Assembly: GCA_020435995.1 (NCBI GenBank)
Contig: JAGQYO010000005.1
Coordinates: forward strand, 1-64,000
Reading direction: 5' to 3'
DNA: 64,000 nt
Origin: Flavobacteriales bacterium
GTDB taxonomy: Bacteria > Bacteroidota > Bacteroidia > Flavobacteriales_G > Salibacteraceae
The translations under genes were made by a program, and so were the position numbers. Under the pieces are notes generated by a model, which was not told the DNA's origin, made no database searches, and worked only from the letters and a program-made list of their open reading frames with translations. Positions 48,899-50,652 of the stretch are shown here, in pieces (position 1 is the first letter of the stretch; every line of letters begins with the position of its first letter).

Positions 48899-50083
48899 AT
48901 GACGACAGTTGAGCTCGCATACGAATTGATCCAGAAGCATTCTTTTGAATTAGATAAAATAAAAACACCCCTTTCAAATGCTCTTTCCTGTGTTTTGGCG
49001 GAAGACATTACTGCTCCGATCCACCTTCCTTCTTTCCGAAATTCAGCGATGGATGGGTACGCCATTCGGATGGAAGACTACAAAGGGGAATTCTCTAATT
49101 TTTTTATACATCAAGAAATTCAAGCAGGACTCAATAAGAAGGTTTTATTAAATGAAAATGAAGCAGCCCGAATTTTCACTGGTGCTCCTGTCCCAGAAAA
49201 TTGTAATGCTGTAATCATCCAAGAACATGCAGTCCGAGAAGGTGACCAAGTTCGATTTATAACTCCAACTCCAAAAGACCAGCAAAACATTCGTCAAATT
49301 GGAGAACAGGTTAAAGTAGCTGATGTTGCACTAAACGCCGGAGTAAAATTGACGCCAGCTGCCTTGGGTTATCTGGCATCTTTGGGAATTCTTGAGGTTA
49401 TCGTTTTCCGCCAACCTAAAGTAGCCCTAATTACAACCGGTGATGAACTTATAAAACCCGGGAATGAACTACAATTTGGTGAAATTTATGAATCTAACTC
49501 TGCCTCATTATTAAATGCACTGAAACATATGGGTATTTCAGAACCTACACATATTCAAATAAAAGACAATTACAACCAAACCGTAAAAGAAATAAACAGC
49601 GCTATTAATGAATTCGACATACTTCTGCTTACGGGCGGCGTTTCGGTTGGAGATTACGACTTTGTTGGAAAAGCATTTAAGGAAATCAAAGTTGAAGAAC
49701 TTTTTTATAAGGTGAAACAGAAACCTGGAGGACCTTTGTTTTTTGGTAGGAAGGGAGATACTTTGTTGTTTGGTCTGCCAGGAAATCCTGCAGCGGCATT
49801 GTCTTGTTTCTATGTATATGCTGCAGAAGCCATCAGAATTATGTGTGGAAATAAAGGTTCTAATATGATTAATGCCTACTATCTGGCCAAAAACGAATAC
49901 ACTAAAAAAGGGTCAAAATCTCAGTTCCTAAAGGGCCTGCTTCATAATGGGGAAGTTGAAATTCTAGAAGGACAAAGCTCAAACATGATGCACACTTTTG
50001 CCATTGCAAATTGCCTCGTTTATATGGAAGCAGAAGCAACTGTCGTTAAGCCAAATGAAAAAGTGGGGGTTGTTCTGATTTAA
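48899..50083 (+). CDS. moeA: Molybdopterin molybdotransferase
   Basis: A 394-residue MoeA that inserts molybdate into adenylated molybdopterin. Conserved PSFRNSAMDGYA (40-51), the DE of LITTGDELI, the SNSASLL and LLTGGVSVGDYDFVG loops, and FGLPGNPAAAL. No other moa/mob genes are nearby. The stop (50081-50083) overlaps the start of a 62-base repeat. Confidence 0.96.
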   Translation: MTTVELAYELIQKHSFELDKIKTPLSNALSCVLAEDITAPIHLPSFRNSAMDGYAIRMEDYKGEFSNFFIHQEIQAGLNKKVLLNENEAARIFTGAPVPENCNAVIIQEHAVREGDQVRFITPTPKDQQNIRQIGEQVKVADVALNAGVKLTPAALGYLASLGILEVIVFRQPKVALITTGDELIKPGNELQFGEIYESNSASLLNALKHMGISEPTHIQIKDNYNQTVKEINSAINEFDILLLTGGVSVGDYDFVGKAFKEIKVEELFYKVKQKPGGPLFFGRKGDTLLFGLPGNPAAALSCFYVYAAEAIRIMCGNKGSNMINAYYLAKNEYTKKGSKSQFLKGLLHNGEVEILEGQSSNMMHTFAIANCLVYMEAEATVVKPNEKVGVVLI

Positions 50084-50143
50084 AGCTCCCACTTTTCGTG
50101 AGAGCTTTTGTGGTGGGCCCTACTGGGTTCGAACCAGTGACCC
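50082..50143. repeat. 62-base direct repeat, copy 1 (tRNA 3' end plus terminator)
   Basis: Identical to 50423-50484. It contains the hairpin AAAGCTCCCAC/GTGAGAGCTTT and a tRNA 3' half from the T arm to CCA. It starts inside the moeA stop codon. The hairpin may serve moeA on the plus strand with its short T-run. Confidence 0.9.
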
Positions 50144-50148
50144 TCCCG
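50111..50148 (-). pseudogene. tRNA 3'-half fragment
   Basis: On the minus strand, from CGGGAGGGTCA through ACTGG-TTCGAAC-CCAGT and AGGGCCC-A-CCA. It is identical to the 3' part of tRNA-Thr from GGGT onward, but lacks a 5' half next to it. It begins a few bases after the stop of the GIY-YIG gene. Confidence 0.8.
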
Positions 50149-50152
50149 ATTG

Positions 50153-50413
50153 CTACGCATCTGGATGCTCTAGATTAACCAACTTTTGGATTTTAATCTT
50201 GCTTTTCCAACGTTTGATTTCTATTTCTCGCTTTATAGATTCTTCTTTAGTTGGAAATGACTCCGTATAAACAACTTGCCAATCTTTTGCCTTGGCCGTA
50301 TATCCCTTGTGATTTGATAAATGGCGACGCAAGCGATCTTTTACGGCCAGAGAAGTACTCCCGACGTAGTATGTATCTAATACTGATGAGTATAGAATGT
50401 AACAACTATGCAT
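50153..50413 (-). CDS. GIY-YIG endonuclease-superfamily small protein
   Basis: An 86-residue protein with the GIY-YIG core: YIL (5-7) and YVG (16-18), R in [11 protein letters not shown], and E/K residues in [15 protein letters not shown]. It is close in size to the YhbQ-like families. It lies between the two copies of a 62-base repeat and its last codons abut the tRNA 3'-half fragment. Such small ORFs near tRNA genes are frequent in the Flavobacteria, as far as I recall, and mobility is suspected. Its promoter is unclear; it may be read through the tRNA terminator. Confidence 0.85.
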
Positions 50414-50418
50414 GAAAT

Positions 50419-50449
50419 AAAAAAAGCTCCCACTTTTCGTGAGAGCTTT
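50419..50449 (-). terminator. tRNA-Thr terminator
   Basis: Minus-strand hairpin AAAGCTCTCAC, loop GAAAA, GTGGGAGCTTT (with one G-T pair), followed by a run of seven Ts. Confidence 0.9.
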
Positions 50450-50484
50450 TGTGGTGGGCCCTACTGGGTTCGAACCAGTGACCC
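50423..50484. repeat. 62-base direct repeat, copy 2
   Basis: The same 62 bases as 50082-50143, here forming the true terminator and 3' end of the intact tRNA-Thr. The offset is 341 bases. Confidence 0.9.
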
Positions 50485-50529
50485 CCTGCTTGTAAGGCAG
50501 GTGCTCTGAACCAGCTGAGCTAAGGGCCC
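50452..50529 (-). tRNA. tRNA-Thr (anticodon UGU)
   Basis: A complete cloverleaf on the minus strand: acceptor GGGCCCT/AGGGCCC, D arm GCTC/GAGC, anticodon stem CCTGC/GCAGG with loop CTTGTAA (anticodon TGT, reading ACA), T arm ACTGG-TTCGAAC-CCAGT, discriminator A and an encoded CCA (50454-50452). Without CCA it is 75 bases. Confidence 0.95.
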
Positions 50530-50559
50530 TAACAATCTAAATATATTTTCCTTAAAACT

Positions 50560-50608
50560 TGACCCTCCCGCAGAGCGGGATACTCTGAACCAGCTGAGCT
50601 AAGGGCCC
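50560..50608 (-). pseudogene. tRNA 5'-half fragment
   Basis: Minus-strand bases from GGGCCCTTAGCTCAGCTGG through GAG match the 5' part of tRNA-Thr, then depart to a perfect small hairpin TCCCGC-TCT-GCGGGA and GGGTCA. It has no 3' half. Modelled as one tRNA with the downstream 3' fragment, the variable region would be two bases short and the anticodon stem mispaired, so it is not a working tRNA. It lies between the tRNA promoter and the intact tRNA. Confidence 0.8.
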
Positions 50609-50622
50609 GATTTTTCGGACGG

Positions 50623-50652
50623 CAAATATAGAACGATTTCTAATCCGTGCAA
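50623..50652 (-). promoter_or_regulatory. tRNA locus promoter
   Basis: Minus-strand TTG (50652-50650), 19 bases, TATATTTG (50630-50623): full consensus match. Transcription would cover the 5' fragment and tRNA-Thr. Confidence 0.6.

Follow-up and report, generated by a model that had tools for sequence, protein, structure and literature searches.

The GIY-YIG nuclease gene that adjoins tRNA-Val(UAC) in the window (the whole stretch of 64,000 nucleotides that was analysed) is best explained, with a probability of roughly 0.7, as a free-standing, homing-like element that is specific for tRNA genes, spreads by breakage and repair of its target and leaves an intact tRNA in place. Evidence for this reading was gathered from the anatomy of the locus, from the recurrence of its layout across many genomes, from the palindromes seated in the broken tRNA copies, and from the match between nuclease lineages and tRNA identity.

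Structure of the tRNA-Val locus

On the minus strand, the locus runs from a promoter-like site through a tRNA 5' fragment with a palindrome, an intact tRNA-Val(UAC), its terminator, the GIY-YIG ORF and a 3' tRNA remnant to a copied terminator. The promoter-like site, TTG-N19-TATATTTG (50652-50623), was read from the sequence 5' of the tRNA fragment, and it resembles the Bacteroidota -33/-7 type. The 5' fragment (50608-50583; repeat D2) reproduces the first 26 nt of the intact tRNA with 100% identity (50504-50529 / 50583-50608). It continues into TA, the perfect palindrome TCCCGCTCTGCGGGA (50580-50566) and GGGTCA (together 50582-50560), a segment recognised from the sequence and from kindred palindromes in the remnants of relatives. 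This segment takes the place that the anticodon arm would have in the 5' fragment (50608-50560), which has neither a T arm nor the 3' strand of the acceptor stem.

The intact tRNA-Val(UAC) with its CCA end (50529-50452) was identified by ARAGORN and by Rfam (RF00005, 71.6 bits), and it is the single copy of Val(UAC) among the tRNAs recovered from its own genome. It is followed by an intrinsic terminator (50450-50415), read from the sequence and the RNA fold, and by the nuclease ORF of 86 aa (50413-50153; PF01541, E 2.2e-15). The stop codon of the ORF lies in a degenerate palindrome, TCCAGATGCGTAGCAATCGGGA (50165-50144), which occupies the anticodon-arm position of the 3' remnant, the same place as that of TCCCGATTTGCTATCGGGA in a related locus (L040). 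The 3' remnant, from variable loop to CCA (50143-50111), and the copied terminator (50110-50082) belong to a 62-bp repeat of the tRNA 3' part and terminator that is 100% identical in both copies (50082-50143 / 50423-50484), and the copied terminator abuts the stop codon of a convergent moeA-like ORF (48899-50083). Between the repeats no ORF of at least 60 aa other than the nuclease was present and no integrase gene was found, and a cmscan search of the window locus for group I intron RNA matched only the tRNA (RF00005).

The sequence-only reading had described one intact tRNA, a GIY-YIG ORF, 5' and 3' tRNA fragments and a 62-base copy of the tRNA 3' end with its terminator, all of which hold up against the PF01541 match and the perfect repeats. 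Its naming of the tRNA as Thr(UGU) was mistaken, because TGT had been taken from the plus strand although every feature lies on the minus strand. In the predicted fold of leader, tRNA and terminator (50418-50612, minus strand), the 5' fragment supplants the intact tRNA in its acceptor pairing, and the leader pairs with the tRNA 3' half (z -3.6, a value inflated by the tRNA and terminator themselves); a leader of this kind could interfere with the maturation of tRNA-Val if RNase P did not act beforehand.

Recurrence of the nuclease beside tRNA genes

Relatives of the ORF were sought in its own genome, in 60 relatives and in 60 further genomes from across the phylum, with genome contigs searched and the surroundings of the copies read. 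Linkage was counted only for copies that came from the GIY-directed search and had enough flanking sequence (158 copies, about 20 families). An intact tRNA lay beside the nuclease gene on the same strand in 91 of these 158, and none lay within 200 nt on the opposite strand; at a density of about 40 tRNA genes per 3-4 Mb, chance would supply less than one neighbour of this kind. Since the layout recurs in many genomes, a chance origin of the arrangement in the window is excluded. Had the relatives displayed ordinary tandem tRNA duplication with no tie to a GIY-YIG gene, the sequence-only reading would have lost its ground; that is clearly not the pattern seen.

Two mirror layouts can be distinguished. 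Class A (74/158), in which the tRNA ends less than 200 nt upstream of the nuclease gene, comprises tRNA, terminator, GIY-YIG gene and a 3' remnant copied from that tRNA, in many cases together with its terminator. Class B (17/158), in which the intact tRNA starts just downstream, comprises a promoter with a 5' remnant, the GIY-YIG gene and the intact tRNA, and its ORF often runs into the tRNA so that the stop codon is formed by tRNA positions U8-A9-G10. The distance from tRNA to GIY domain has its mode at 50-60 nt. The tRNA-linked genes are spread over about 20 families and 40 genera, including one contig of Fidelibacterota (Neomarinimicrobiota) with tRNA-Gly (L045), and class A alone covers 23 anticodon types. 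The remnant of class A matches the adjacent tRNA in 58 of 71 cases (E<=1e-3), against 21 of 355 control pairings of tRNAs with remnants of other identities. A further 48 of the 158 copies are neither linked to a tRNA nor placed in tandem behind another GIY-YIG gene, and part of the family therefore does something else.

Relatives normally carry one remnant, 3' in class A and 5' in class B, and the layout in the window is that of class A plus an extra 5' fragment; both there and in class A a duplicated gene end lies beyond the endonuclease ORF with the working gene present. A tRNA-Asn gene (G151) likewise has a palindrome-bearing 5' fragment ahead of the intact tRNA and, after it, 3' remnants with palindromes, which suggests repeated events at one gene.

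Additional elements or palindromic remnants of this kind were observed in the same genome as the window, at C159 (L001), C161 (L005), C170 (L004) and C109:1-200 (L200); these sites comprise a Pro(GGG) element of class B, Leu(CAA), Leu(UAA) and one remnant at a contig end, and the Leu(CAA) element has remnants on both sides of its nuclease. Four other loci (L109, L101, L104 and L234) hold palindromic tRNA remnants that lack a GIY-YIG gene of their own, some of them in tandem, and are possible non-autonomous derivatives.

Palindromes within the tRNA remnants

The remnants often hold a short TCC...GGA palindrome in the region of the D, anticodon or T loop. A clear palindrome was present in only 49 of 71 class A remnants, and 34 exceed shuffled sequences, and TCCCGCTCTGCGGGA itself matches once in the 64-kb window (0.22 expected). 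Within a nuclease lineage the place of the palindrome is exact to the base, as in Met (CATA|pal|CG), Asn (TGTTA|pal|TG) and Leu (GGTTCG|pal|C). Its inner pairs covary: in counts that also include a number of native anticodon stems and a few strings that are off target, position 4 was Watson-Crick in 27 of 31 cases with two pair types (shuffled mean 15.8) and position 5 in 28 of 31 with three pair types (shuffled mean 14.0). The palindrome presumably replaces the cut site of the nuclease.

A palindrome dispersed through the genome in the manner of REP sequences was considered and ruled out, the counts of TCCCG..CGGGA in the genome of the window being 14 as against 15 for the reversed control. 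Among the copies inspected in that genome, those that are perfect palindromes lie at tRNA remnants or in a terminator. The same genome also has, at G000:C110 about 74100-74210 (L203 minus strand 1390-1500; L232), a full-length tRNA-Val(GAC) whose D loop contains a palindrome of 32 nt and which is followed by a truncated GIY-YIG ORF; tRNA-Val(GAC) may be lost or odd in this organism, because no intact second copy was recovered.

The nuclease and its lineages

The window nuclease consists of 86 aa and of the catalytic GIY-YIG domain only. Residues Y13, G15, R24, H28, T36 and K64 are invariant in the alignment (A1) and E60 is nearly so. The nearest solved relatives of the nuclease profile are UPF0213 and SLX1 proteins (1zg2, E 1.9e-13; SLX1, E 1.9e-6), the closest solved sequences being 1zg2, 1ywl, 7wme and 7cq2, and we know of no reported linkage of UPF0213/SLX1 GIY-YIG proteins to tRNA genes. 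Nucleases of the tRNA-linked type are chromosomal and 80-100 aa long, and they have no separate DNA-binding part that would account for their target specificity. The window nuclease had no match in phage, plasmid or viral collections, whereby carriage by any of these was ruled out for it.

On a tree of 92 tRNA-linked nucleases, resting on 81 alignment columns and with many weak forks, the amino-acid label of the adjacent tRNA required 37 changes, compared with 68.9 for shuffled labels, and 0 of 200 shuffles were as low. For the same 86 rows with family codes, tRNA identity required 34 changes (shuffled 64.4) and host family 51 (shuffled 57.9). Nuclease lineages thus follow tRNA identity far better than host family, as is expected if lineages move between hosts yet stay with their tRNA. 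The window nuclease falls in a Val/Arg clade that spans several families.

Occupied, empty and decayed sites

Relatives reached through the synteny of an ABC transporter were too distant to show an empty form of the window's own locus, and occupied and empty sites were contrasted at other loci, between species of one genus, so that gain and loss are not separable in every case. Genus g9 offers a tRNA-Met locus that is empty in at least three species (G028, G034 and G029); at this locus G008 has the nuclease, G031 has remnants and the nuclease, G026 and G024 have remnants only, and G032 retains a decayed start of the nuclease gene. In genus g53, a single tRNA-Asn locus is empty in G074, occupied in G113 and decayed in G120, and G151, whose flank is 89% identical to that of G113, carries fragments without a nuclease. 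The terminator of the intact tRNA-Asn in G113 resembles that of its relatives, and it is the remnant, not the end of the intact gene, that looks foreign.

Tandem growth was found as well, in an array (L206, G110:C34:5000-11500) of 7.9 units of 364 nt, each consisting of a GIY-YIG gene, a palindromic tRNA-fMet remnant and a terminator, with no intact tRNA beside the array. In a separate observation, a tandem run of five GIY-YIG units, each about 400 nt long, stands near a contig end (L052, G004:C35). Many GIY-YIG copies lie at contig ends, and the elements therefore probably break assemblies. Two genomes (L264, G075:C21, and L185, G070:C43) share about 99% identity through the final base of tRNA-Ser(GGA), past which one has a GIY-YIG element and the other about 3.6 kb of different sequence; since they diverge right after the tRNA, its 3' end appears to be a hot spot.

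Proposed mechanism and alternative explanations

From these patterns we infer that the nuclease cuts, that the element is mobile and spreads by break and repair, and what part the palindrome plays. The element would be made up of a UPF0213/SLX1-like GIY-YIG gene and a partial copy of its cognate tRNA that carries the palindrome. Its nuclease would cut the cognate tRNA gene in a DNA molecule free of the element, probably in a loop-coding segment, and repair by homologous recombination would copy the nuclease gene into the cut tRNA gene, with the tRNA end and terminator serving as homology in class A and the tRNA start and promoter in class B. One complete tRNA would be kept or rebuilt and one broken copy would stay. 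The palindrome at the would-be cut site may protect the broken copy from cutting, or may label it. The neighbouring intact tRNA is still expected to be a target, and self-cutting must therefore be limited somehow. Tandem units, remnants without a nuclease and decayed copies would reflect later recombination and loss. At about even odds, the elements further constitute a previously undescribed superfamily of selfish elements on the chromosomes of Bacteroidota and their neighbours, with lineages each devoted to one or a few tRNA genes, a cis-acting palindrome that replaces the cut site, two mirror forms that use either end of the tRNA gene, and derivatives without the nuclease that spread tRNA fragments.

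The alternative that survives best, improbable as we judge it, is a small circle or another non-homing element that recombines at tRNA ends, the GIY-YIG protein being a cruciform or hairpin nuclease that acts on the palindrome. Cleavage of such structures is a live alternative because of the UPF0213/SLX1 similarity, and the tandem units and conserved palindromes would fit it, as would class A, which resembles circle integration in having the tRNA 3' end and terminator repeated on both sides. However, no recombinase gene is present, class B uses the tRNA 5' end, and the palindrome sits inside the remnant and not at the ends of the repeat.

Next, and likewise hard to credit, comes passive hitchhiking, by which the gene of a house-keeping, structure-specific nuclease would have been caught in tandem tRNA duplications and later decayed, tRNA genes being hot spots of recombination. 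The UPF0213/SLX1-like protein and the existence of tandem units and decayed copies are compatible with it, but it does not lead one to expect that strand is so strict and spacing constant, that nuclease lineages correspond to tRNA identity, palindrome places fixed within a lineage, or the mirror class B with its stop codon inside the tRNA.

A single insertion with target duplication at the 11-mer CGGGAGGGTCA, by which one tRNA was opened and a working tRNA restored inside, was the idea of the sequence-only reading and is very improbable. The 11-mer is indeed common to both tRNA fragments and absent from the intact tRNA, and joining the fragments at it would yield a full-length tRNA-like sequence. 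It consists, however, of the right arm of the palindrome, CGGGA, and the native GGGTCA, by which a target-site duplication was ruled out, and it recurs in one-sided tRNA-Val 3' remnants of other genomes (L009, L038 and L040), so that the junction was found elsewhere without the 5' half. What stands of that idea is a GIY-YIG element linked to a tRNA gene, flanked by broken copies, with the working tRNA kept; a single opening point is not required, most relatives having only one remnant, 3' or 5'. Lastly, a service to the host, in which leader and trailer RNAs derived from the tRNA control tRNA-Val or the nuclease, itself domesticated, is scarcely credible despite the leader pairing (z -3.6) and the reading frame that is intact in many copies, as that z-score is inflated and as sporadic presence and decay in sister species suggest a selfish element over a conserved host function.

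Relation to known systems and implications

Observations that correspond to a free-standing homing element include the conserved catalytic residues, the position of the gene at its putative target outside any intron or intein (91/158), empty and occupied orthologous alleles (g9 and g53), and the tracking of target over host by the lineages. SegB of phages T4 and T6 is a free-standing GIY-YIG homing endonuclease (PMC13096335, PMC2988022), which is reported to cut within tRNA genes, to be often linked to them, and to amplify [segB-tRNA] units through homologous recombination (PMC13096335). The elements described here share with it a GIY-YIG gene adjoining tRNA genes and, on the proposed mechanism, would share cuts placed in tRNA genes and amplification of nuclease-tRNA units by recombination; SegB likewise has microhomology between the 3' region of the nuclease gene and the 5' region of the tRNA. 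The motif reported for SegB, RAWTSGAAC, seems to correspond to the complement of the conserved sequence that encodes the T loop, just where the Leu and elongator-Met lineages have their palindrome. In contrast, SegB is phage-borne and the present elements are chromosomal, with 80-100 aa and the catalytic domain only; the passages on SegB mention neither palindromic tRNA remnants nor tRNA-specific lineages, and SegB is said there to favour no isotype. Within the compass of these passages, SegB is by analogy an experimental precedent for the proposed homing.

A structural precedent, again by analogy, is found in the fungal mitochondrial mORFs, which make gene hybrids at atp6, atp9, cox2 and nad3 (PMC3630166). 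There too an endonuclease ORF (LAGLIDADG; GIY-YIG in atp9) separates a functional hybrid gene from the displaced duplicate of its 3' end (PMC3630166), although mORFs reside in mitochondrial protein genes and the present elements in bacterial tRNA genes, with a mirror 5' form and palindromic remnants. Group I introns in bacterial tRNA genes resemble the elements in a homing-type invasion that keeps the tRNA working, whereas here no intron RNA was found, there is nothing to splice and the intact tRNA is separate. Integrative elements with attB at tRNA 3' ends likewise repeat the tRNA 3' end on their far side and regenerate the tRNA, but the present elements have no recombinase, measure hundreds of bases and not kilobases, and also take a 5'-end form. 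A search of the open PMC literature turned up no account of GIY-YIG elements linked to tRNA genes in Bacteroidota. Each piece is of a familiar type; what that open literature did not yield is their combination at bacterial tRNA genes, the occurrence of mirror forms, palindromes fixed by lineage and a match of lineage to tRNA.

Overall, few targets open to a selfish element are as conserved and essential as tRNA genes. If the homing reading is true, a very small nuclease gene has colonised many tRNA identities throughout the phylum, repeatedly and with its hosts surviving, and would be a chromosomal counterpart to phage SegB and to the mitochondrial gene-hybrid elements. It would account for tRNA fragments and palindromes near bacterial tRNAs, and would warn annotators of false or duplicated tRNA calls and of contig breaks at tRNA genes. 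It would further offer natural nucleases of 80-100 aa with many different predicted tRNA-gene targets.
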